This document shows, piece by piece, positions 7,490-20,008 of a stretch of DNA of 64,000 nucleotides (its first letter is position 1; the number at the start of each line of letters is the position of its first letter). A program made the position numbers and the translations under genes. The stretch spans positions 1 through 64,000 of the forward strand of contig JAPLGM010000015.1 in NCBI GenBank assembly GCA_026390165.1, read 5' to 3'. This DNA comes from Campylobacterales bacterium (GTDB lineage: Bacteria; Campylobacterota; Campylobacteria; Campylobacterales; Sulfurimonadaceae). Below the pieces are notes generated by a model. It saw only the letters and a list, made by a program, of their open reading frames with translations, was not told the DNA's origin and did not search any database.

Positions 7490-9706
7490 TTAATCGAGTA
7501 AGGAGTCCCTTATTTCGAGAAATTGATCAAGATGGTTGAAGAAAATATCAATCAGCTCTGGATCGAAATGTTTCCCCCTCTCTTTTTGGAAGAGTTCAAG
7601 TATCTCTTCGAGTGGCCATGCTTTTTTGTAAATACGGTCATGCCCCAAGGCATCAAATACATCAGCAATGGCGGTAATACGACCAAAAATATGGATATCC
7701 CCCCCTTTTGTCTGATTGGGGTAGCCACTGCCATCCCATTTTTCATGATGGGTTGAGGCGACGAGGGCGGAAGTTTTGAGAATAGGGCGATCGGAATGGT
7801 TGAGCATCTCAAATCCCAGCTGAGCGTGTGTTTTCATAATTTCAAACTCTTCAAAAGTGAGTTTTCCCGGTTTATTCAAAATACTGTCAGGGATAGCGAC
7901 TTTGCCAATATCGTGCATCGGTGAAGCCTGCTTGAGCAGTGAAGCTTCTTCTTCACTTAATCCGATCAGCTTCGCGAGGAGATAGGAGTATTCGGCGACT
8001 CGTTTGACGTGCAGCCCTGTCTCTTTGGATCGGGTTTCTCCGATTGCCCCCATGGTAAAAACGACTTCCCTTTGTGTATTGACAATCTCTTCATTGAGGG
8101 AAATAATTTCGGTAATATCGTGCATTATCTGTAAATGTTCAACTAGCTCACCTTGAATATTAATGATGGGATAAAAAAGAGTGTTAACAATGTACTCTTG
8201 CCCATTTTTAGCGATATTGGTCATAACTTTGCGTACCTTTGAGCAAGCATTGTCAGATTTATGTTTTTCATGACTCATTGCCTTGCAATCCATCCCCACT
8301 AGCTCTTCTAGTGTGTATCCGCTTAAGTTACAAAATTTATCATTGGCATATTGGATAATATTGTGTGTATCCGTTTTCAAAATTGCTGTTGTCGAGTTGA
8401 TTGCATCTTCGTATTGGGTCATATAATGAAGATTCTCTTCTAAGCTTTTATTGGTCGTATCAAGCTCATGTTTTAAAAGCTGTTTGAACTCCTCTAGCTC
8501 ATCACTTGTTTTGGAAATAAGGGTCGTTAATGCTTTTAGGGTGACTTTGCTTTTCTCCTTACTCCTAGCATGAGAGACAAAATTTACTTTTTCATTCGGA
8601 ATAGTTTCATTCAGGGTGACAAAGGTTGTTGTGATATTAAGAAGGTTATTGTGGCACCCTTCTCGATTATGAAAGAACTCGCCATAGGTGATAAATCCTG
8701 ATGTGGGGCCGATTTGATTGATGTAGCTTAGCTCTTCATTCAGAAAATCGCCAAGTATCTGGCGTCTTGCCGCGCAACTGTAGATATAGATTGCTTTATT
8801 CTTGTGAGGGAATTGATGCGAGAGGATCTCTTTATTCTGATTTTCAATATGTTCAATATTTAGGTGACCAAATCGTACAAAAATCCCCTCTGGTATATCT
8901 CCTGCAAACGACATGAAACCGAGCTCTTTGTTAACCGCGACAGGTGATCTGGCAATTTCAACGCCACCAATATTAAAAATAAGGGGAAACTCAATTCCGT
9001 ATTCGAGAATATTATCAGCAATATCTTTTCCAAGATAGTGGGTATAAATATCGAGGGGGCTTTTATGGTCGATTTCAAATACTTCCCCACCTTGTGATTT
9101 AGTCACCAACATCTCCTGACCGATGGATTGACAATTAAGAAGGTATTTGGTGGAGATACGGAGTTGATGTGAATTGATAGCGGCAAAAACGATGTCGCAA
9201 TCCTCTTCTTCTTTGGAAAAAACAACACATCGTTGGAAATAGTAATCATCACCAGCATTGCCCCCTACTATGACAATATGGGGATATAGATTGGTTAATT
9301 TTTGGAGTAATTGTGCTGAGTTAAAGCGAAATGTATTGGCAAAAATAACGAGTAATTTTGTTGTATCATTGATTAGATTTACGGAAAGTTTTTCTATGAG
9401 GGTATCAATAGAGGTATTGGTATAGCCGACACAAGAAACCTTGGATGCCTCAAATACCGAACAAGAGATAAGAATAGTATCGTCGATCATTTCTCCATCA
9501 CTAATTGTGCCTGCGGTAGAGGTGGCAATGAGGGAACAATCGGGAAGGAGAGAAAGAATTTCGGATCGGACTTGATAAAGCTTCTCATCCTTTTGATTGG
9601 AGAAAAAGATTTGAATCAAGATAGAGGGATAGGTTTTCAGTCTATGAGAATCTATCCAATTAGAGAGGGAGCGTAAATTGTGATAAGTATGGTTTAGCAA
9701 CTTCAT
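7490..9706 (-). CDS. FIST-PAS-HD-GYP sensor, putative c-di-GMP phosphodiesterase
   Basis: Soluble signalling protein of 738 residues. FIST_N and FIST_C domains fill about residues 20-380 (FIST is a proposed small-ligand, possibly amino-acid, sensor). A PAS domain lies near 430-540 (NLSGYTLEELVG) and an HD-GYP domain near 555-730 with HDIGKVAIPD, THHEKWDGSGYP and ADVFDALGHDR, all key metal residues present. It should hydrolyse c-di-GMP under control of ligand and PAS signals. An upstream in-frame ATG at 9724 exists, but AGGGGA six bases before the ATG at 9706 favours that start. It stands alone between convergent porB and divergent lsrK-like genes. Confidence 0.88.
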   Translation of the reverse strand: MKLLNHTYHNLRSLSNWIDSHRLKTYPSILIQIFFSNQKDEKLYQVRSEILSLLPDCSLIATSTAGTISDGEMIDDTILISCSVFEASKVSCVGYTNTSIDTLIEKLSVNLINDTTKLLVIFANTFRFNSAQLLQKLTNLYPHIVIVGGNAGDDYYFQRCVVFSKEEEDCDIVFAAINSHQLRISTKYLLNCQSIGQEMLVTKSQGGEVFEIDHKSPLDIYTHYLGKDIADNILEYGIEFPLIFNIGGVEIARSPVAVNKELGFMSFAGDIPEGIFVRFGHLNIEHIENQNKEILSHQFPHKNKAIYIYSCAARRQILGDFLNEELSYINQIGPTSGFITYGEFFHNREGCHNNLLNITTTFVTLNETIPNEKVNFVSHARSKEKSKVTLKALTTLISKTSDELEEFKQLLKHELDTTNKSLEENLHYMTQYEDAINSTTAILKTDTHNIIQYANDKFCNLSGYTLEELVGMDCKAMSHEKHKSDNACSKVRKVMTNIAKNGQEYIVNTLFYPIINIQGELVEHLQIMHDITEIISLNEEIVNTQREVVFTMGAIGETRSKETGLHVKRVAEYSYLLAKLIGLSEEEASLLKQASPMHDIGKVAIPDSILNKPGKLTFEEFEIMKTHAQLGFEMLNHSDRPILKTSALVASTHHEKWDGSGYPNQTKGGDIHIFGRITAIADVFDALGHDRIYKKAWPLEEILELFQKERGKHFDPELIDIFFNHLDQFLEIRDSLLD

Positions 9707-9840
9707 CCAATTTCCCCTAACCATTTTAATGGGCGAATTTTAACATATAATTCACTATTATTACCCAAGATGAATACGACCGTAACGTGAGTGATCCAAA
9801 TGATTTACGCTACACTTATTAAAAATTACAGGGGAATACA

Positions 9841-11379
9841 ATGAACCATTATTTATGTGCCATTGATGCAGGGACGGGGAGTATTCGGGCAATTATTTTT
9901 GATACTAAGGGCAATCAATGCTCTATGGCACAATACGAATGGAACCATCTGACTCAAGAGGGGGTTGAGGGCTCTATGGAATTTGATTTTCTTCATGGAT
10001 GGGAGCTTACCAAGCGGTGTATTAAAGAGGCAATTGCTAAAGCAGGAATACATGCAAAAGAGATACTAGCGATATCGGCTTCGAGTATGCGTGAGGGGAT
10101 TATTGTTTATGATAAGGATAAAAAGGAACTTTGGGGTGTGGCGAATGTTGATAGCCGTGCAGGGGCAGAAGTCGCGTATCTTAAACGTCAATCTTCTACA
10201 ATGGAGTTGGAGTTTTACAAAAGCAGTGGTCAGACTTTTGCCCTCTCCGCGGCTCCACGCCTTTTATGGTTGAAAAATAATTGTCCCGATTTGTATGAAA
10301 AGGCGACCTATTTTACGATGATAAGTGATTGGATACTCTTCAAACTCAGCGGTGAATTGGCATCGGAACCCTCTAATGCAGGGACAGCAGGGGCATTTAA
10401 TCTAAAAACCCGCGATTGGGAAAAAAGTCAGTTTGAGAGATGCGGTTTAAAAGATCTGTTTGTCCCTGTATTGGAGAGCGGTGACGTATTGGGGAAAATA
10501 TCCGCGCAAGCGTGTGATGAGATAGGATTAAGTCGCGAAACACTTGTCGTAATGGGGGGCGGTGATGTTCAAATCGCAACGGCAGGTCTCGGAGCCTCCA
10601 AGCTCGGCGATGCGGTGATTCTAGGGGGGAGTTTTTGGCAACAGGTGGTCAATATCCCCTCCGATAGAGCCTTATCGGATGAAATGTTGCTTCGGGTCAA
10701 TCCGCATGTTGTCCGTGGTATGTCTCAAGCGGAGGGGATCACTTTTTTTACGGGATTGGTGATGCGATGGTTTCGAGAGTCTTTGGGCGGTGGGCGAAGC
10801 TACGAAGAGCTTGAAAAAATGGCAGCTTCGGTTCCCGTAGGCTCTTATGGGATACTCCCTATTTTCAGTGACAGTATGAACTATGGAGAGTGGATACACG
10901 CCTCCCCTTCGTTTGTCGGGCTTGGGTTGGACAGTAGCAAATACAATATTGGTTCCATGTTTCGTTCGTTGGAAGAGAATGCGTGTATCGTGAGTGGTAT
11001 CAATCTTGATAATATCAAGGCATTTAGCGGTGTCTCCCCCACCTCTCTCATTTTTGCCAGCGGTGCCTCTAACGGTACATTATGGTCACAGATCTTAGCG
11101 GATGTGACGGGATTGGAAGTTAATGTTCCTGTGGTGAAGGAGGCGACGGCGTTGGGTGTAGCGATGGCGTGCGGTATTGGTGCAGGGGTGTATAACAGTT
11201 TTGAAGAGGCAGGAAAAAATATTGTAAAAATAGAGAAAAGTTATGAACCGAATCATACATATTTCCAGACTTATCAAGAGGTTAAAGAGAGATGGCGTAA
11301 AGTTTACAGCAAACAGATGGAGTTGGTACGAGAGGGGAGCGTGGAGCCGATGTGGAAGGCTCCGGGGGTATTTGAATAA
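9841..11379 (+). CDS. lsrK: FGGY-family carbohydrate kinase, AI-2 kinase (LsrK)-like
   Basis: FGGY kinase of 512 residues resembling autoinducer-2 kinase LsrK more than xylulokinase or glycerol kinase. The N-terminus IDAGTGSIRAIIFD, then SMEFDF, SASSMREGIIVYD and ANVDSRAGAEV match LsrK segment by segment from memory. The ATPase C-terminal half shows VVMGGGDVQIATAGLG, LGGSFWQQV and ASGASNGTLWSQILADVTG. LsrK phosphorylates the open-chain AI-2 precursor DPD. luxS lies 8 kb away and an LsrG-like protein 6.5 kb away, which supports an AI-2-related role; there are no LsrACD transport genes here. ACAGGGGA precedes the ATG. Another pentulose-like substrate is possible. Confidence 0.75.
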   Translation: MNHYLCAIDAGTGSIRAIIFDTKGNQCSMAQYEWNHLTQEGVEGSMEFDFLHGWELTKRCIKEAIAKAGIHAKEILAISASSMREGIIVYDKDKKELWGVANVDSRAGAEVAYLKRQSSTMELEFYKSSGQTFALSAAPRLLWLKNNCPDLYEKATYFTMISDWILFKLSGELASEPSNAGTAGAFNLKTRDWEKSQFERCGLKDLFVPVLESGDVLGKISAQACDEIGLSRETLVVMGGGDVQIATAGLGASKLGDAVILGGSFWQQVVNIPSDRALSDEMLLRVNPHVVRGMSQAEGITFFTGLVMRWFRESLGGGRSYEELEKMAASVPVGSYGILPIFSDSMNYGEWIHASPSFVGLGLDSSKYNIGSMFRSLEENACIVSGINLDNIKAFSGVSPTSLIFASGASNGTLWSQILADVTGLEVNVPVVKEATALGVAMACGIGAGVYNSFEEAGKNIVKIEKSYEPNHTYFQTYQEVKERWRKVYSKQMELVREGSVEPMWKAPGVFE

Positions 11380-11385
11380 CATTTT

Positions 11386-11413
11386 AAGCCCACCTAATGA
11401 GGGCTTTGCTCTT
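11386..11413 (+). terminator. Probable terminator after the lsrK-like gene
   Basis: AAGCCC and GGGCTT arms around a nine-base loop, followed by TGCTCTT, seven bases after the stop codon. The stem is short but the position fits a Rho-independent terminator. Confidence 0.55.
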
Positions 11414-11479
11414 GACAAACAGTTTTATGGACGTGAAGCTGAATTAGCAAAGCTTCAGAAATAAACTTAGGGGTTAAAT

Positions 11480-12358
11480 TCATTCCACTATTTCGGTTGC
11501 AATAGATGAGATATCAGGGCTAAATTTCACTCCAATCAAGGCAGCTTCTTTTTTGTTAAAGATAATATTGGTTCCGGCTGGATATTGTATCTTTTCTATT
11601 TTCTCTTCATTGATATGACTCTCTATCATAGCGGCTATTTGTCTTCCGACTGTTGGATTGTCCATCGAAATCACTAACGTTGCGCCATATTTTATAAAGA
11701 GTTCGTGATAGGCGATCACCGGTTTTTTATACTTTTCTGAAACGATGAAGAGGTTCTTAATTGCTGTTGCATTATTGACAAATAGAGGATCGGGTATGAT
11801 CATCATAGCGTCACTCTCTTTTACGGTATCATCGAAGCTCTTATTTTTCAGAGACTCTTCTTCGATTTTTATAGGGAGTATCTTTATCCCTAGTTGTTTT
11901 GCATCGTGACTAAAATCATCCACGATATTCTGGGTATATTTGCTGTGTATTACCCCTATCGTTTTAATCGTACTCAATACTGTTTTAATAAGGGTGAGTT
12001 GCATACCGCTGTGCAGTTCATTGGAAACACCGTAACGTTTACCGTGGAGAGGAAATTTTTTCCAATCAACAATAGAGCTGAAATAGATCTTTTTTTCCGG
12101 TATATATTCATTGGCATACTGATAGGCTTTGGCACCGACCGCATACACGATATCCGGATATTCATCATAAAGAGACTGTTTTATTTCACTGCTGCTCATG
12201 GCTGATATATCTAACGTTTTAAAAGGTCGGTTAAAATTTTTACTAAACGCATCCACCGCTTCTGTGTACTTTTTAACGTCAGAATTAGAGTTCATGACCA
12301 AGATCGTTTCTCCTTGCAATAAAAGGCTAAAAAGAGATAGGAAAAATAGTAATTTCAT
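11480..12358 (-). CDS. Periplasmic ABC-type substrate-binding protein (ABC_sub_bind-like)
   Basis: 292 residues with an N-terminal signal peptide (MKLLFFLSLFSLLLQGE) and no lipobox. The body follows the ABC_sub_bind fold family (PF04392-like): a Rossmann-type first lobe with DEYPDIVYAVGAKAYQYA, a second lobe with TIGVIHSKYTQNIVDDF, and a late YGATLVISMDNPTVGRQIA segment typical of that family. It is the last gene of a five-gene reverse-strand operon and overlaps the preceding gene by four bases (ATGA). No permease or ATPase is nearby, so it may act as a sensor component or serve a transporter elsewhere (inference). The ligand is unknown. Confidence 0.75.
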   Translation of the reverse strand: MKLLFFLSLFSLLLQGETILVMNSNSDVKKYTEAVDAFSKNFNRPFKTLDISAMSSSEIKQSLYDEYPDIVYAVGAKAYQYANEYIPEKKIYFSSIVDWKKFPLHGKRYGVSNELHSGMQLTLIKTVLSTIKTIGVIHSKYTQNIVDDFSHDAKQLGIKILPIKIEEESLKNKSFDDTVKESDAMMIIPDPLFVNNATAIKNLFIVSEKYKKPVIAYHELFIKYGATLVISMDNPTVGRQIAAMIESHINEEKIEKIQYPAGTNIIFNKKEAALIGVKFSPDISSIATEIVE

Positions 12359-13113
12359 TTTACCTCTCCTCTATTTTTTAGATTCTGCATAGTGAAAACG
12401 ACCAATTTATCGACACCTATCATATTTAAAATATTTTTCCCGTTGTCGGATAGCCCCATGTTTTTGAAAATGTCTACCAGTTTATTCTCCTCTTTATCGA
12501 TCTCATTACATGCCAAAATGGTTCTGTACTCGGGATCGGACTCATAATATATTGTTAAATCTTTAGCTAAAATCGGATTGATATTTTGCAACAATATGAA
12601 ACTATCTTTGGATACAAGGGCAAAGCGGCTCATTCCAAAACCGACACTCATCAAAGCATCGATCTCTTTTGGAACTTTAAGAACAGATAGCTCTTTGGAT
12701 TTATTATTGGTTATGTTGCTTAACACGTCATTGGTATACTCTTTATCGTAAGCGGAGGTCACCACCCCTTTTAAGGTGATATTCTTTGCCCCGACAAGTA
12801 TTTTTTTATCAGTGATATACCCTTTTCTTTGGGCTACCAGCAACGCCTCAAGATTATATCTCTTTGCAATTTCACGATAATGCCAACTTGATAGAATCGC
12901 AATGGAATTTGTCTTTTTTAAATATTTTTCAAAAGTCTCTTTATCGTTGAAGGGTTGAAACTCATAATTTCCGAACGCACTTAAATACGCATCGAAGCTT
13001 GTTTTGAGTGATTTGAAATTATTGACATTTATTTCTGGTGTATACAAATATACTTTGACCGCATCGGAGAAAAGGATATTGGTAAATAGTAGAATTAAAA
13101 AGAGTATTTTCAC
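12355..13113 (-). CDS. Periplasmic PhnD-like solute-binding protein
   Basis: 252 residues with a signal peptide ending near ILFSDA. The segments IAILSSWHYREIAKRY, GYITDKKILVGAKNITLKGVV and VGFGMSRFALVSKDSF are laid out like PhnD/phosphate-phosphonate-type periplasmic binding proteins (PF12974-like), with the C-terminal helix LSDNGKNILNMIGVDKLV also typical. The start is a GTG preceded by GGAAAAAA. It lies 26 bases after the DUF917 gene and overlaps the next binding protein, so both are co-translated. Two different binding-protein folds side by side without a transporter is unusual. Confidence 0.65.
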   Translation of the reverse strand: MKILFLILLFTNILFSDAVKVYLYTPEINVNNFKSLKTSFDAYLSAFGNYEFQPFNDKETFEKYLKKTNSIAILSSWHYREIAKRYNLEALLVAQRKGYITDKKILVGAKNITLKGVVTSAYDKEYTNDVLSNITNNKSKELSVLKVPKEIDALMSVGFGMSRFALVSKDSFILLQNINPILAKDLTIYYESDPEYRTILACNEIDKEENKLVDIFKNMGLSDNGKNILNMIGVDKLVVFTMQNLKNRGEVK

Positions 13114-13139
13114 TTTTTTCCTAATTTATGCGTTTAATT

Positions 13140-14342
13140 TCATAACCATGGTTGAGTATAGTGCTCAGGTCCACCTAGCATTTGATTAATTTGACACCAG
13201 TTTGATATCAGAGTATTACACTTTTTTACATGTTCAGGTGCGTCAATCCCGATGACATGAAGTTTAATAACTTTTTTCATAGGACAGTTATAGAGTGCAT
13301 TTAGCCCTGTAACGTCTAATATCTTTAGAGTGGAGTCTTCCATCCCGATCACTTCAGGAAGAAAACATATAGAGTCAGGTCCCATAATATAGGGTTTTTC
13401 TACCCCATTTTTATCCACTATATTTGCAAAAATATTCTCATTCTCAGTTGCTACTTTTAACGTTTCACCCTCAAAAGTATTAATCCCCTTGATGATTAGT
13501 GTACCGACATCTGTTCCGTTGACAACGGTACTTTCAATGCTCTCTAATGTGCCGGAAAAAATCTCTTTAGTCAATCTTTTTTCTTTACTCTCATTGTTCA
13601 TATAGGATATGATTTTTTCAGCTCTGCTTGAGGCTGAATTTTCTTGGTTAATAATTTTGCCTATATTCAAAGCATCGAGCATGGTATTTTGTACCGTGAA
13701 TTTAGGCTTAAAATCTTTTTTGCTCATAGGATAGAGAGAAAAACCTCCGCTGTTTTTAAACGCACTCGACGTAAACATTTGTGAAAAACACTCTTGCACA
13801 TGATCTAAACTCTCAAGATTATAGGAAGAAAAAAGAGGCTTTTCACTGCCACTAGCGATAAAGTTAGGATAGAACGGACAGTTGTACCCTGCCAATAAGG
13901 TGAGCGGTAAGGTAGGGGTAGCTCTTCCTGATGGATCAGCATTAACAACTTTGAAATCCATTCCTTTCTCTTTGGCTAATTTAGCGGCGATAATGGGTAA
14001 AACAGAATTCACAGTACCGACTTCCATCGGAAAGATATACTTAAAATTCGTAAAGTCTTTTTTGTTTTGTTGACACCACTCCTGCATGATTTCGATGACG
14101 TTAAGCAGTGATCTATTAAGCTCTGAAGCATTGAATGTCCCACTTGGTAGCCCCATTCCCGAAGATGGAATGATCCACTCACTCTCATGAATATCATCGA
14201 AATCAACAACCTCTACGGTGTCCCCTTCTTTAAAGTCTGCATCAATACAGCTTTGCCCTAACTCGAGTGGTCCACCACCGCCTGAGGCCAAAAAACATGC
14301 TCCATAGAGTATCTGTTCCAGTTCTGCTTTACCGATTATCAT
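13140..14342 (-). CDS. DUF917-family protein
   Basis: 400 residues matching DUF917 (PF06032, also named for S-methyl-thiohydantoin desulfurase). The N-terminus has the glycine motif CFLASGGGGPLELGQ and the acidic-hydrophobic strand VVDFDDIHESEWIIPSSGMG; PMEVGTVNSVLPIIAAKLA and VVNADPSGRATPTLPLTLL follow. The C-terminal half ends with a second domain (KKVIKLHVIGIDAPEHVKK). Family members often sit beside hydantoinase-type enzymes; none is present here. It is the only enzyme-like gene of the operon, lying between a TonB receptor and two binding proteins. Function here is unknown; processing of the imported ligand is a guess. Confidence 0.75.
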   Translation of the reverse strand: MIIGKAELEQILYGACFLASGGGGPLELGQSCIDADFKEGDTVEVVDFDDIHESEWIIPSSGMGLPSGTFNASELNRSLLNVIEIMQEWCQQNKKDFTNFKYIFPMEVGTVNSVLPIIAAKLAKEKGMDFKVVNADPSGRATPTLPLTLLAGYNCPFYPNFIASGSEKPLFSSYNLESLDHVQECFSQMFTSSAFKNSGGFSLYPMSKKDFKPKFTVQNTMLDALNIGKIINQENSASSRAEKIISYMNNESKEKRLTKEIFSGTLESIESTVVNGTDVGTLIIKGINTFEGETLKVATENENIFANIVDKNGVEKPYIMGPDSICFLPEVIGMEDSTLKILDVTGLNALYNCPMKKVIKLHVIGIDAPEHVKKCNTLISNWCQINQMLGGPEHYTQPWL

Positions 14343-14356
14343 CTACTATCTCCTCT

Positions 14357-16345
14357 TTAAAATTTATAGGACAACTCAGCCATATACGATCTTCCGGCTA
14401 AGGGATAGTCATAAGGGGCATTTGAATCGTAACTTTTTTCGTCGAATATATTATAGAGCGAAAACTTCATTTGTAAATCTTTTAGTATCAAATCTTTTGC
14501 CAATAACGTTGCATTGCTTGTGATACTGCCCTCAACGACATTTCTTGTATCGGTTAAACCTCTTGTTTGTTTTCCCATATACTTCGCATCGGTATAAAGA
14601 TTAAAGGTGTTGTTAATTCTACAGTTAAGGGCTAAATAGCCTTGATTTTGGGATATATTATCCAATCTTCGTGATGTTTCTTCATTTCTCGGATTTTGAT
14701 AGGTGTAGTTTGCCACTATATATGAACCTCTGCGTAAGTTCTGTTTTAGCTCTGCTTCTAACCCTTGCGTGGTTGTTTTTCCCTGATTGAGATATGTACT
14801 ATTTGCAGTGGTGATAATATCATCTATAGTGCTTTTAAAAATACTCAAGGATGCTTTTAAATTATCTATAGAGGTATTTTGTACATTTAACTCAACCGTT
14901 CTTACCTTCTCGGGTTTTAGGTTTGGATTACCTACCAATGCCGGATTGTTTTTGTTATACAGCTCTGCAAACGTTGGCGCTCTAAATGCTTCTCCGTACA
15001 TCAGTTTAATAATGTTATGGTTGTTTACTTCCCATGCCGCGCCGAGTCTCGGGTTTAGAACACCATCAAAGTCACTGTAATGGTCATATCGTACACCGGC
15101 GGTAAGCCTTAGATCCTCTCTAACATCATAAAGAAGCTCACTGTATGCAGCCCAAAACTTTCTATTTGCTTCCGATACGAAGTTTGTGTTGGGAGCTGAT
15201 AAGTCTTGTAAACTACCCAGAGGAATTCCTGTTGCGGGGTTATAATTTGCTTTGTAGATAGGATCTTTGAGTTTTTGAGTTTCATAGGAGAGGCCGGATA
15301 CGACGGTATAGTTCTCTTTTTTGATCGTTAATAACGTTTCAAATCCTGATTTTAAGTTTGTATAACCGGTAATCGCCAACATACCATCGGTAAAAGCCGG
15401 TGCCGGAAAACTTGCAGGAAATATTCTCCAGCGATTGTCGGCTATGAAACTATCATGATATACACGTGAATCCAAGGTATAGTTATCATTGATGTTATAT
15501 TTATGTCCCAACTCTACAAAGTAGGCTTCTCTTTTGGACTTATCTTCATTATTGAGAGCATGTGCCGCACCGTAACGGGGACCGTCTTCGGTGGTGTTGT
15601 AGTTGGCTTTAGCGTAAAAGCCATTGGTGTGTTTTACCGATAAATTTGCATTGAGCCTCTCGGATGTAGGATTTGTATTTCCGCTATTACCTACGGCATC
15701 ATTCGCTACATATGCACTATATCCGTCGGTATTACGGTAGTTTATATTCGCCGTAATGTCAAAGTTTCTATACGTTTTGCCCAAAAGGAGATTCGCCGTT
15801 TTAGTATTATAACTGCCTGCTTTAGCACTGATTTGAACCCCATTGATATCCTGAGCCTTTTTGGTAATGATATTAATAAGTGCAGTAAAAGCATTTTCAC
15901 CATACAGTGCGGATGCAGGTCCTCGGATGATTTCAACTCTTTTGATATTTTCCAAAGGTAAGTTTGCAAACGTACCGGTTGCTCCTCCATTGAGTAAATC
16001 TGAATTTAAAGAGTGCCCGTCAAGAAGGATTAAAACTTTTTCGGAAAACCACGTTTGGATACCGCGCACGGCTATTTTGTCTACATAGATATTGCTTTGT
16101 GAAACACCAAGACCGGGGACGACTCGTAACACATCTAATAGGGTGTTGGCTCCCATTTTGTTTATCATCTCTTCATCAATAACACTAACGGAAGCCGAGG
16201 TTTTTTTGATGTTTTCTTTGACCCGTGATGCCGATATTACATACGTCTCATCTTTAAGCCACAAAGCTTCATCTTGCAGCGTTGCATCAAACGGATTTGC
16301 AAAAATAATAGCAGGAATACTCACGCAAAGAATTTTTTTTATCAC
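14357..16345 (-). CDS. TonB-dependent outer-membrane receptor
   Basis: 662-residue receptor of colicin I/BtuB type. A signal peptide precedes residue 17. A TonB-box-like stretch (ETYVISASR) is near residue 34. The plug domain spans about 45-155 (MGANTLLDVLRVVPGLGV, RVEIIRGPASALYGENAF), and a beta barrel follows with the terminal aromatic signature ending in YKF. The start is GTG preceded by AAGGG. It lies 15 bases after the diguanylate cyclase gene and 14 bases before the DUF917 gene. It should import a scarce ligand using TonB energy; siderophore, cobalamin or an organic molecule cannot be distinguished. Confidence 0.9.
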   Translation of the reverse strand: MIKKILCVSIPAIIFANPFDATLQDEALWLKDETYVISASRVKENIKKTSASVSVIDEEMINKMGANTLLDVLRVVPGLGVSQSNIYVDKIAVRGIQTWFSEKVLILLDGHSLNSDLLNGGATGTFANLPLENIKRVEIIRGPASALYGENAFTALINIITKKAQDINGVQISAKAGSYNTKTANLLLGKTYRNFDITANINYRNTDGYSAYVANDAVGNSGNTNPTSERLNANLSVKHTNGFYAKANYNTTEDGPRYGAAHALNNEDKSKREAYFVELGHKYNINDNYTLDSRVYHDSFIADNRWRIFPASFPAPAFTDGMLAITGYTNLKSGFETLLTIKKENYTVVSGLSYETQKLKDPIYKANYNPATGIPLGSLQDLSAPNTNFVSEANRKFWAAYSELLYDVREDLRLTAGVRYDHYSDFDGVLNPRLGAAWEVNNHNIIKLMYGEAFRAPTFAELYNKNNPALVGNPNLKPEKVRTVELNVQNTSIDNLKASLSIFKSTIDDIITTANSTYLNQGKTTTQGLEAELKQNLRRGSYIVANYTYQNPRNEETSRRLDNISQNQGYLALNCRINNTFNLYTDAKYMGKQTRGLTDTRNVVEGSITSNATLLAKDLILKDLQMKFSLYNIFDEKSYDSNAPYDYPLAGRSYMAELSYKF

Positions 16346-16360
16346 GAAAACCCTTTTCTC

Positions 16361-17707
16361 TTAATTTGGATTATAAACGACGCAGTTGCGTCCGCTACTT
16401 TTGCCCAAGTAAAGAGCACTGTCTGCACGGCTTAACATCGACACATCACTGTCTTTTTGTGAACAACTGCTTATCCCAATACTGATAGTTTGTTGCTGAT
16501 TGCTGCTAAAAGTGTAGCTCTCTACCGCTTTACGGAGTCTCTCTGCCAGTAACAGTGCCCGATCTTTGGTTGTTTCACGACAAATAACGAGAAACTCTTC
16601 GCCTCCCCAACGCCCTATGATATCTGTTTCACGTATTGTTGCAGAGAGTATATTAGCGATTTCCATAAGAACCTTATCTCCGATTAAGTGCCCAAAGGTA
16701 TCGTTTACGTTCTTAAAAAAATCGACATCGCATAAAAGGATGGAAAACGGGGTGTTGTATCGTCTGGCAATCTCTATTTGCTCAGAAAATACCTCTTCAA
16801 GTTTGAGTCGGTTATAAAGCTGGGTCAATTTGTCAGTGACGGAGAGCTTTTCCAGCTCCAGAGTACGCAACGATACCATCTGTTCCAATTGAGTGTTATA
16901 GTCTGCCAATTTTTTATAGGAGCTTTGTAAGTTTTCACTCATCTTATTAAAGGTTCTCTCCAGCGTTCCAAGTTCATCTTTTCTATTTTCCGCCTCATTC
17001 GATGCAGGGGTAAAGTTCCCTTCTGAGAGCTCTTCTGCACGCTTGGTTAAATTGATAATAGGTTTACTGATATGCAGTGCCATACTATAGGCGAAGGGGA
17101 GAAAAAGGATAAAAAAGATTGCCATGGTTAAGAGCGATTGAAATAAAGAGCGATGAATTTTTTCTTCCATCTGCTTGGAATAATTCAATACTTTTTTTTC
17201 AAGTTCTGCTTGTGTAAAGTAAAGTGTCAAGATGCCCCACGGCTCGCTTCCCAAATAAAGACTCTTTTGAATAATGAGGAGGGGATGATTATTGTAGATG
17301 CGCTCACTGACGTGAATGGCACTGTTATTGATGTCTTGAGGAGAAAAATGGCTTTTGGGCAGAGGAGCGTCTTGGGATTGAACGATGATATTACCATTTT
17401 TGTCAATAACATCAATATGCTTTATATTGTTACCTTTGGTGGCATCATTAAGGACTAACTCCGAAAATTTTGAAAAATTATAGGTAGCCAGTTCATTTTC
17501 AAGTTGTAGGACAAGCGAATCGGTATGCGTTTTGGCTCGAAGTACCATATTGTCTTTTAATAAGGTTTTTTGCTCGTAAAAGGTCTCTTGGAGGAGTGTT
17601 TTATAGGAGAGGATATGTTGTACGGTAAGGATAACAGAGATTCCAAAGAGTAAAAGGGAGAGAAGAAGAAGGAGCTTCCAATGGATTTGTTCTTTAAAAA
17701 TGTCCAT
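16361..17707 (-). CDS. Membrane diguanylate cyclase with periplasmic sensor, HAMP and GGDEF
   Basis: 448 residues. A first membrane segment lies near residues 12-32, a periplasmic sensor region of about 150 residues follows (VIDKNGNIIVQSQDA looks like a Cache-type fold), then a second membrane segment near 190-212, a HAMP linker (ISKPIINLTKRAEELSEGNF), a coiled coil and a GGDEF domain with GGEEF. RETD five residues before GGEEF fits the I-site. It is the first gene of the operon with the TonB receptor, DUF917 protein and two binding proteins, so it could report ligand status in the periplasm as c-di-GMP (inference). Confidence 0.9.
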   Translation of the reverse strand: MDIFKEQIHWKLLLLLSLLLFGISVILTVQHILSYKTLLQETFYEQKTLLKDNMVLRAKTHTDSLVLQLENELATYNFSKFSELVLNDATKGNNIKHIDVIDKNGNIIVQSQDAPLPKSHFSPQDINNSAIHVSERIYNNHPLLIIQKSLYLGSEPWGILTLYFTQAELEKKVLNYSKQMEEKIHRSLFQSLLTMAIFFILFLPFAYSMALHISKPIINLTKRAEELSEGNFTPASNEAENRKDELGTLERTFNKMSENLQSSYKKLADYNTQLEQMVSLRTLELEKLSVTDKLTQLYNRLKLEEVFSEQIEIARRYNTPFSILLCDVDFFKNVNDTFGHLIGDKVLMEIANILSATIRETDIIGRWGGEEFLVICRETTKDRALLLAERLRKAVESYTFSSNQQQTISIGISSCSQKDSDVSMLSRADSALYLGKSSGRNCVVYNPN

Positions 17708-17806
17708 TTTTTAACCTCCTTCAACTTTACATAATAATTAATAATTAAATGATTATACCTAAGATTTTAGCTATTTAACTCTTGCTCAATAAAAAACTTT
17801 ATGGAT

Positions 17807-18112
17807 TTAAACCCCATACGCCCCTTCATCCAATAGCTCCAACTCCTCGGTATATTTATCCTCCACGAACGGCTCATAATGCGATTTATAATAGGCATAG
17901 TGTGCGGTATGTTTATGCCCCTCTAATGATGCTTCATCTGCCCATGATTCGACGGCGAAGAATTTTTTCGGATTGCTGTGCGATTGGAAGATGTAGTAAA
18001 AAAGACATCCTGCTTCTTTGAGAGAGGGAGCTACCATATTTTCTAATAGTTTTTTAACGGTTTGTATGTGCTCCTCTTTGGCGATAAAGGTTACTTTTTT
18101 GGTGATTTTCAT
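17807..18112 (-). CDS. Antibiotic-biosynthesis-monooxygenase-fold protein, LsrG/YgiN-like
   Basis: 101-residue single-domain ABM-fold protein. The conserved His/Trp elements read ESWADEASLEGHKHTAHYAYY, with an N-terminal strand KVTFIAKEEHIQTVKKLLENM. LsrG, which isomerises phospho-DPD, and the quinol monooxygenase YgiN share this fold; sequence alone does not choose between them. The neighbourhood (class II aldolase and luxS just upstream, an LsrK-like kinase further along) makes an LsrG-type role worth testing. AAGGA precedes the ATG. Confidence 0.75.
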   Translation of the reverse strand: MKITKKVTFIAKEEHIQTVKKLLENMVAPSLKEAGCLFYYIFQSHSNPKKFFAVESWADEASLEGHKHTAHYAYYKSHYEPFVEDKYTEELELLDEGAYGV

Positions 18113-18180
18113 GTTTTTTCCTTATTATTTATTTTATACGCCATCGGAATGCATCTCGATTGGCTACGCTAACGCTAAGT

Positions 18181-18217
18181 TTCCCTCAGCGGGAAGCTCG
18201 CGCACAGTGAACCGTGC
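18181..18217 (-). other. Two small hairpins between the aldolase and ABM genes
   Basis: TTCCC-TCAGC-GGGAA at 18181-18195 and GCAC-AGTGAACC-GTGC at 18202-18217 lie between the two co-oriented genes. There is no T-tract, so they look more like mRNA stabilising or processing structures than a terminator. Confidence 0.35.
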
Positions 18218-18228
18218 TTATTTAATCA

Positions 18229-19404
18229 CTACTTTTTCTTTAATTTTGCTTGCTCTAATTCCCAATACTCCATTGCAAACATCTGTGCAAGACTGAGTGA
18301 CGTCCACGCTCCGAGTTGTTCGCTGCTTAAAATTGCCGTAATGGTATGTTCGACAATATCGGCGATAATGCGGGCTTCTTTTTCGTCTTTTCCTAGGGCA
18401 ACCGCGCCTAAGCCTTTGAGTATAGCATAACGGGGAGCGAGGTCGAGGCAAATGTGTGTTTCATTACGGTATTTATTAAAATAGCGTTGATAATCGTCTT
18501 GGAACTCGAGAATACCTGCTTCGATGTCGGTGTCAATCAGTGCAGGAAACGGTTTGATGCGTATAACATGCTCTGGAGTAAGTTCTCCTTGTTTCATTAC
18601 TCGTTTGAGATTCGGGAAAAGAGAGAGCTGTTTCGCTCTTTGGGAGTCTATTAGGATGGGGAAAATTGGACAGTTGCGTAGGGTTGCTACTTCATCGCAG
18701 AGCTTCTTAATACTATCTGTGTTGTTTTCTTTCGGAGATTCTAAACTTGGAAGCACAACATTTTTTTCGAGATAATTTTCAGCTATGGTCACAATAGCAA
18801 TCATCTTTTCGTAGGCGACTTTAGCATCATTATCAAAAGTAAAAACACCGTGATTGAGTAGGATAATCCCCTCTAAGGTTTCCCAATCAATTTCTTGCGT
18901 CACGGTATGGATATGTTTGGCAAGCTCAAATCCAGGCATAACGTAGTCAATGAGGAGCATATTTTTGCCATACAGCTCTTTCATGAGCTCTTTCCCGTTA
19001 GGGGTGTTGGTGAGGGTAACAACGGCATCGGCGTGGGTATGATCGACGTAGGTGAAGGGGAGTATAGCGTGGAGTATCGCTTCGATAGAGGGGTTGGGGA
19101 AGCTTTGATCGCTCATCGCGTCTCGTTGCTCCTTAACCATCTGCATGTCGCTGAGAGTATCACGCTTTGCCATTTCGATAAGGGTATTCAAATCGACAGG
19201 AGAAAATCCTTCTTTTTCGATGGTGTCGAGATTCCACCCTGACCCTTTGACGTACAATATCCCGTCGATTTTTACGGAGGTATTGCCGCCGCCATGGAGG
19301 ACTAAATCTTGGTTTTTACCCAAAAGCTGTGAGGTGTAGACCCGCATTGCTAAAGGATCATTTTCGTAGTTGGAGGCTTGTGTATCGTCAAAGAGACTTT
19401 TCAT
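18229..19404 (-). CDS. Class II aldolase/adducin-family protein (RhaD-type aldolase domain without dehydrogenase)
   Basis: 391 residues. LVLHGGGNTSVK near residue 37 and a zinc site made from HTHAD near residue 138 plus LNHGVFTF further on define a metal-dependent class II aldolase. PSIEAILHAI upstream of HTHAD is the usual catalytic-region helix. The closest architecture I know is the N-terminal aldolase half of the RhaD/YuxG-type fused rhamnulose-1-phosphate aldolase/dehydrogenases, but the short-chain dehydrogenase half is absent. It is divergent from luxS by 97 bases. Retro-aldol cleavage of a phosphorylated deoxy sugar, perhaps phospho-DPD or a related ketose phosphate, is inference. Confidence 0.8.
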   Translation of the reverse strand: MKSLFDDTQASNYENDPLAMRVYTSQLLGKNQDLVLHGGGNTSVKIDGILYVKGSGWNLDTIEKEGFSPVDLNTLIEMAKRDTLSDMQMVKEQRDAMSDQSFPNPSIEAILHAILPFTYVDHTHADAVVTLTNTPNGKELMKELYGKNMLLIDYVMPGFELAKHIHTVTQEIDWETLEGIILLNHGVFTFDNDAKVAYEKMIAIVTIAENYLEKNVVLPSLESPKENNTDSIKKLCDEVATLRNCPIFPILIDSQRAKQLSLFPNLKRVMKQGELTPEHVIRIKPFPALIDTDIEAGILEFQDDYQRYFNKYRNETHICLDLAPRYAILKGLGAVALGKDEKEARIIADIVEHTITAILSSEQLGAWTSLSLAQMFAMEYWELEQAKLKKK

Positions 19405-19501
19405 ATTTTGAGTTCCTCGGGTTAATAATCAAATTATAGCGATGCAAGGATGAAATATGTTACCATTGTCCCAACTAAAGAATGATTTTTAAGGATACCT
19501 A

Positions 19502-20008
19502 ATGCCATTACTCGACAGTTTTACCGTTGACCACACTATTATGCCCGCCCCTGCAGTGCGACGTGCCAAGGGGATGAAGACTCCTCATGGGGATGATATT
19601 ACCGTTTTTGATCTCCGTTTTTGCCGTCCGAATGAGGCGATTTTGTCCCAAGAAGGGATTCATACACTGGAGCATCTGTTCGCAGGATTTATGCGCAACC
19701 ATCTCAACTCGTCCGAAACCGAGGTGATTGATCTTTCTCCGATGGGGTGCCGGACGGGGTTTTATATGAGCGTTATCGGGTGTCCCAGTGAAGAAGAAGT
19801 AGTTAAAGCATGGGAAGCCTCGATGCACGATGTATTAGCCGTTGAGAGCCAAAATGATATTCCAGAACTTAACCTCTACCAATGCGGAACCTATAAGATG
19901 CACTCACTTGAAGATGCCAAGGCAATCGCCGCTGAAGTGTTGCGTAAAGATATCGACATTATGGATAACGACGCGTTGAAACTTGACCTCTCCAAGGTAG
20001 AGCACTAA
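19502..20008 (+). CDS. luxS: S-ribosylhomocysteine lyase LuxS
   Basis: 168 residues, normal length. LuxS cleaves S-ribosylhomocysteine to homocysteine and DPD, the AI-2 precursor, in the activated methyl cycle. The zinc motif [10 protein letters not shown] is near residue 58, the catalytic Cys is in [12 protein letters not shown], and the third zinc ligand Cys is in [17 protein letters not shown] precedes the ATG. The stop codon overlaps the next gene start by one base, and a third gene overlaps that one, so luxS leads a three-gene operon. Confidence 0.97.

Follow-up and report, generated by a model that had tools for sequence, protein, structure and literature searches.

A putative binding-protein-gated c-di-GMP sensing cassette with a variable enzyme slot in Sulfuricurvum

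What is the function of an operon which encodes an outer-membrane receptor, two periplasmic binding proteins and a diguanylate cyclase, and which is devoid of any transporter? This question is raised by a stretch of 64,000 nucleotides (hereafter, the window) from a genome assigned to the genus Sulfuricurvum (phylum Campylobacterota), which was compared with a sample of 200 genomes of the family Sulfurimonadaceae. The original prediction described a five-gene operon with spacings of 26 bases or less and a four-base overlap, and all five open reading frames are indeed found at the predicted places, intact and on the minus strand, with 15, 14 and 26 bases between them and then the 4-base overlap. 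In the direction of transcription, they encode a membrane diguanylate cyclase (DGC; 16361–17707), for which the open reading frame, Pfam and a structural model indicate a transmembrane segment, a periplasmic single-Cache-like sensor, a second transmembrane segment, a HAMP domain and a GGDEF domain; a TonB-dependent outer-membrane receptor (14357–16345); a type A DUF917 or S-Me-THD-like protein occupying a variable slot (13140–14342); a PhnD-like periplasmic binding protein (12355–13113); and a periplasmic binding protein of the ABC_sub_bind (TrpX-like) family (11480–12358). The absence of a transporter is likewise borne out, Pfam identifying neither a permease nor an ATPase among these genes. 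As judged from sequence comparisons, this locus is probably a c-di-GMP sensing cassette gated by binding proteins and not an uptake system.

A clear orthologue of the PhnD-like protein is encoded in seven of the 200 genomes (the window genome, G104, G112, G098, G099, G138 and G172), and a sensor search added an eighth carrier, G194, in which the contig starts within the ABC_sub_bind gene. The seven genomes other than that of the window, one of them partial, share the order TonB receptor, variable gene, PhnD-like protein, ABC_sub_bind protein and sensor histidine kinase (HK), and in each of the seven the end of the ABC_sub_bind gene and the start of the kinase gene share a 4-bp overlap. The search for this order in other genomes, which had been proposed as a check, therefore indicates that the arrangement is not peculiar to the window genome. 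Downstream, the sister genus g2 (G099, G138, G172 and G194) encodes a response regulator with a GGDEF domain (REC-GGDEF) after the HK, and its cassettes have no DGC; the HK and REC-GGDEF domains were confirmed by Pfam in G099 and G172, and the regulators of G138 and G194 were assigned by similarity. The G104 cassette contains an HK and an HD-GYP gene, and no DGC. Finally, the Sulfuricurvum genomes G112 and G098 possess both the HK and, upstream of the TonB receptor, a window-type DGC, each cassette extending over two contigs; the G112 orthologue is 70% identical (L078), and that of G098 is itself split over contigs L081 and L023.

What became of the kinase in the window can be read directly after the ABC_sub_bind gene, where the ATGA overlap and eight codons, MNLTPKFI (11460–11483), are kept and are followed by unrelated codons up to a stop at 11394 (remnant 11394–11483, minus strand). 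At the equivalent point, the G112 kinase starts with MNLTNKFI, encoded by DNA nearly identical to the remnant. Among the 2416 Met-initiated octamers of the window read in six frames, MNLTPKFI is the only one matching MNLTNKFI at six or more positions. When the G112 kinase was searched against the whole window genome (99.99% complete), only the cassette DGC aligned to its sensor half. The remnant, along with the lack of another sensor copy in the genome, thus identifies the window operon as the ancestral module minus its kinase, which has been deleted, and the DGC as the only sensor of its type left in this genome.

This DGC matches HAMP and GGDEF in Pfam and, weakly, dCache_1, and both its active-site motif (GGEEF) and its I-site (RETD, RxxD) are intact. 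Its sensor part (residues 1–208; 17084–17707, minus strand) is homologous to the sensors of the cassette kinases, albeit at a low identity (22–29%), with E values of 5e-14 against the G172 kinase and 1e-10 against the G104 kinase. Used as a query over the 200 genomes, the sensor matched only cassette DGCs and HKs, plus one weakly similar and unrelated protein from G085 (E 2.6e-4). An AlphaFold2 model computed on the joint sensor alignment (pLDDT 76) shows a PAS-like sheet flanked by two long helices, and its nearest solved folds, the WalK extracellular domain and chemoreceptor sensory domains such as Tlp3, point to a fold of the Cache type. The main argument for a putative action of the binding proteins on the DGC is this common sensor, which the DGC shares with kinases whose genes are translationally coupled to those of the binding proteins. 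In addition, the gene immediately upstream of the cassette DGC in G098 (L081 585–2561) encodes a PhnD-PAS-GGDEF fusion, and PhnD-type input to GGDEF output thus exists in the same gene cluster.

A cassette whose kinase is down to eight codons might conversely be a decaying remnant which has stopped signaling and is being lost, as an internal deletion of the DUF917 gene in G172 and an interruption of the PhnD-like gene in G098 could also suggest. We regard such decay as unlikely, since the five window genes are intact, the catalytic and I-site motifs of the DGC are kept and, as seen in G112 and G098, the DGC is part of the operon irrespective of the kinase.

The data instead lend support to the original proposal of ligand-gated c-di-GMP signaling, the gene order being conserved, the DGC sensor being shared with kinases coupled to the binding proteins and most copies ending in c-di-GMP. 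This output is reached by two routes, an HK with a REC-GGDEF regulator in the sister genus and a direct DGC in the window. In the mechanism which can be proposed, the TonB receptor would pass a scarce ligand through the outer membrane and the two periplasmic proteins would capture this ligand or a product of it. By homology to the coupled kinases, their target would then be the Cache-like sensor of the DGC in the inner membrane, an enzyme which would make c-di-GMP in response. In the ancestral cassette, the binding proteins would have signaled to the HK, associated in one genus with the REC-GGDEF regulator and accompanied in two other Sulfuricurvum genomes by the DGC. The slot gene, DUF917 in the window and a cyclodipeptide synthase (CDPS) elsewhere, is taken to handle the ligand, which would also be the role of DUF917 in the cassette.

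The import components were examined in the same manner. According to Pfam, the TonB receptor is composed of a Plug and a barrel only and has no STN signaling domain, which sets it apart from TonB-dependent transducers; its copies in the cassettes of six relatives are 57–79% identical, and ExbD, with which a TonB receptor could be energized, is present in the window genome. The ABC_sub_bind protein, assigned by Pfam, is a distant relative of TrpX, and this second binding protein is present in every cassette copy. PF06541, the CmpB-type permease which pairs with ABC_sub_bind proteins, is absent from the window genome (one control genome matched), and none of the eight cassette copies contains an ABC permease or ATPase, so that the cassette does not have the composition of an ABC_sub_bind/CmpB importer. 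Of the import-and-sensing cassette originally predicted, the sensing part is supported, and import finds no support beyond the outer membrane. These results also weigh against a reading in which the receptor and the binding proteins feed an unlinked permease, DUF917 degrades the nutrient in the cytoplasm and the DGC reports supply. In favor of such catabolism, DUF917 lacks an evident signal peptide, so that a cytoplasmic location is expected, and at 91% identity between the window and G104 it is more conserved than the TonB receptor (78%) or the binding proteins; however, three copies have lost DUF917 or carry it in broken form and still keep the binding proteins and sensors, and we consider uptake and catabolism a possible but rather improbable explanation.

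The PhnD-like protein has a sub-threshold Phosphonate-bd match in Pfam, and its family has no PDB match by sequence. Its structural model, of modest quality (pLDDT 68), has ArrX and AioX as best fold matches, followed by PtxB, with an identity of 11–17% in these matches. In arsenic-sensing signal transduction, ArrX and AioX act as first components (PMC5908839). An oxyanion sensor of this type, with arsenic, phosphite or thiosulfate-like ligands, might accordingly be envisaged. This is a quite unlikely alternative, given the low identity of these matches, the fact that small anions need no TonB receptor, the constant presence of the second, TrpX-like binding protein and the lack of any oxyanion metabolism gene noticed beside a cassette. 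A block of the PhnD-like protein, VPKEIDALMSVGFGMS, is invariant across six aligned copies and is a candidate ligand or contact site. In G098, the PhnD-like gene is interrupted (L023 13847–14607), possibly by an assembly error.

If the cassette is a sensor, the gene in its variable slot may tell what is sensed. The window DUF917 protein belongs to the S-Me-THD family, as DUF917 is now called, with 91.7 and 78.7 bits for the S-Me-THD_N and S-Me-THD_C domains (cut-off 27), and has a solved homologue, 2o3i; against the NCBIfam equivalog of thiohydantoin desulfurase, it scored 27.7 bits for a cut-off of 440 and is thus not assigned to that enzyme. To our knowledge, DUF917 has no settled chemistry. 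Type A DUF917 is shared with G104. The slot of G112 and G098 is occupied by a type B protein, 28–31% identical to type A, with the other cassette proteins being 63–79% identical to those of the window. No gene fills the slot in G099, and in G172 type A is split between two frames and lacks a stretch (L025 9041–10146), an internal deletion which may be an assembly error. In G138, the slot contains a CDPS (PF16715, 88 bits), whose closest solved relative is a cyclo(Leu-Leu) synthase. DUF917 is therefore not a fixed part of the cassette, being swapped, absent or replaced by a CDPS.

Among the 200 Sulfurimonadaceae genomes, only two CDPS were found, both at a cassette: one in G172 (L025 16746–17465), 2.3 kb downstream of its regulator, and the other at L024 5772–6488. 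DUF917 occurs in five and CDPS in two of the 200 genomes, all of which are among the eight cassette carriers (Fisher p 2e-8 and 1.4e-3, respectively, values which treat related genomes as independent and serve as guides only). The window genome has no CDPS; in 337 other Campylobacterota genomes a search for CDPS gave no match, no control having matched in that search either. According to a published survey, DUF917 is enriched in cyclodipeptide-oxidase-like clusters which also carry hydantoin enzymes (PMC11055893), and TonB receptors near CDPS genes have been noted in a review (PMC4159871). With CDPS or DUF917 in a slot whose gene is taken to handle the ligand, the leading candidate for this ligand would be a cyclic dipeptide or a hydantoin-like cyclic amide, an assignment which we put forward tentatively. 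Being without CDPS, the window organism would sense what others make. One may speculate further, with less assurance, that cyclic-dipeptide signaling controls c-di-GMP in this family: some Sulfurimonadaceae, with the CDPS in the receptor operon, would make the signal, while others, including the window organism, would keep the receptor, binding proteins and sensor along with a DUF917 which alters or destroys the signal, and would thereby listen in on their neighbors or quench them.

The neighborhood of the cassette offers another candidate signal, autoinducer-2 (AI-2). The flanking genes encode LsrK, an LsrG-like ABM protein, a class II aldolase and LuxS; neither these flanks nor the kinase remnant figured in the original prediction. 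LsrK scored 739.8 bits against its equivalog (cut-off 528) and is thereby assigned as autoinducer-2 kinase; the ABM protein scored 32.8 against LsrG (cut-off 135), below what is required of the LsrG isomerase; and the aldolase is a relative of the aldolase portion of RhaD-type fusions. This compact AI-2 locus, in two parts in the window (9841–11379 and 17807–20008), is found in many Sulfuricurvum genomes. No Lsr transporter gene lies beside lsrK, the ABM gene, the aldolase gene and luxS, and this compact locus thus suggests that self-made DPD is handled inside the cell, where it would be phosphorylated and cleaved. A FIST-PAS-HD-GYP protein is encoded between the 6307–7263 gene and lsrK (7490–9724); it is absent from loci L046–L051, and G120 (L044) has an 80% identical copy flanking lsrK on the same side.

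In six other Sulfuricurvum genomes (L046–L051), lsrK is convergent with the ABM and aldolase genes, luxS is divergent and the cassette is absent; lsrK and the ABM gene mostly overlap at their stop codons, and lsrK stands in another setting in L044 and L045. Overall, 32 of the 41 genomes of the genus have lsrK. Since lsrK and the ABM gene abut in relatives without the cassette, the latter most likely entered between them, as a block (11380–17806) with a G+C content of 37.9%, versus 46.3% for lsrK and 43.4% for the ABM and aldolase genes. Its ends show no convincing repeats or target-site duplication, the longest shared word being 8 bases, and promoter and terminator scans stayed near chance level. 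Its position between lsrK and the ABM gene, adjoining class II aldolase and LuxS, could suggest binding proteins which detect AI-2. This link was rejected because the AI-2 locus occurs in the genus without the cassette; moreover, in the stretches read, the cassettes of the relatives have no AI-2 genes next to them, and G104 and G098 have the cassette and lsrK on different contigs, which makes an AI-2 sensor highly improbable. Most likely, the cassette was inserted into a genus-wide AI-2 locus and its AI-2 neighborhood is incidental.

Regarding its age, the window and G104 cassettes are 73–91% identical and their LsrK proteins 76%, a similar divergence, consistent with a cassette long established in the genus which has undergone losses and relocation, and not with a very recent arrival from outside. 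Carriage on plasmids was rejected after searches of plasmid records, in which the PhnD-like protein had no match among 72,556 records and the TonB receptor matched below 60% identity throughout (25–27% among the matches listed). Phylum-wide profile searches with the PhnD-like and ABC_sub_bind proteins found close members only in Sulfurimonadaceae. Distant ABC_sub_bind matches (G531, G530 and G544) have genes resembling a permease and an ATPase beside them, which is the arrangement of ordinary importers; distant PhnD matches belong to PhnD-[TolC-like]-HK-regulator clusters, with no recognized TonB receptor in the loci read. Several clusters in Campylobacterota (L026–L029 and L057–L060) start with at least one gene for a PhnD-like protein, in some cases followed by one for a TolC-like protein, and continue with genes for a sensor kinase and response regulators.

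Few DGCs have a known outside ligand, and the module discussed here connects c-di-GMP with a receptor, a pair of binding proteins and a sensor. It appears as an example of one input domain rewired by evolution between an HK and a direct DGC, in which the first codons of the deleted kinase can still be read. Furthermore, the signaling role of cyclodipeptides is not settled and the slot enzyme points to a chemical class, while the cassette gives DUF917 a testable context.

A literature search found no description of a cassette combining a TonB receptor, PhnD-like and ABC_sub_bind proteins and an HK or DGC, and its parts are best appreciated against known systems. Among TonB-dependent receptors encoded with a signaling system, transducers of the FecA-FecIR type differ from it, as the cassette receptor lacks STN and there is no sigma/anti-sigma pair. 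TrpX-type ABC importers, which associate an ABC_sub_bind protein with a CmpB permease, share this binding protein, but the cassette has neither permease nor ATPase, its window genome lacks PF06541 and, in relatives, the protein is encoded with an HK. CDPS clusters with TonB receptors resemble the cassettes which have a CDPS in the operon slot (G138) or just downstream (G172); in contrast, the CDPS here accompanies a sensing module, no oxidase or other tailoring gene was seen, and a CDPS is missing from the window genome. In AioX-AioS-AioR and ArrXSR, a binding protein of the PhnD fold is the first component, with an adjacent sensor HK (PMC5908839). This pairing is found in the relatives; the window cassette falls outside AioXSR because its kinase is gone, and it further differs by a second binding protein, a TonB receptor, a c-di-GMP output and the absence of noticed arsenic genes. 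In NspS-MbaA, the polyamine-sensing system of Vibrio cholerae, how active a c-di-GMP enzyme of the inner membrane is depends on the ligand occupancy of a periplasmic binding protein (PMC8967002), as is predicted for the cassette, which likewise encodes a membrane c-di-GMP enzyme with a periplasmic sensor together with solute-binding proteins. While NspS-MbaA relies on one binding protein and a GGDEF-EAL enzyme and has no TonB receptor, the cassette includes such a receptor as well as a variable ligand enzyme, its c-di-GMP enzyme is GGDEF-only and its two binding proteins come from other families. By analogy, the cassette would thus work like NspS-MbaA and AioXSR, being in the window a member neither of AioXSR nor of ABC importers or TonB transducers.
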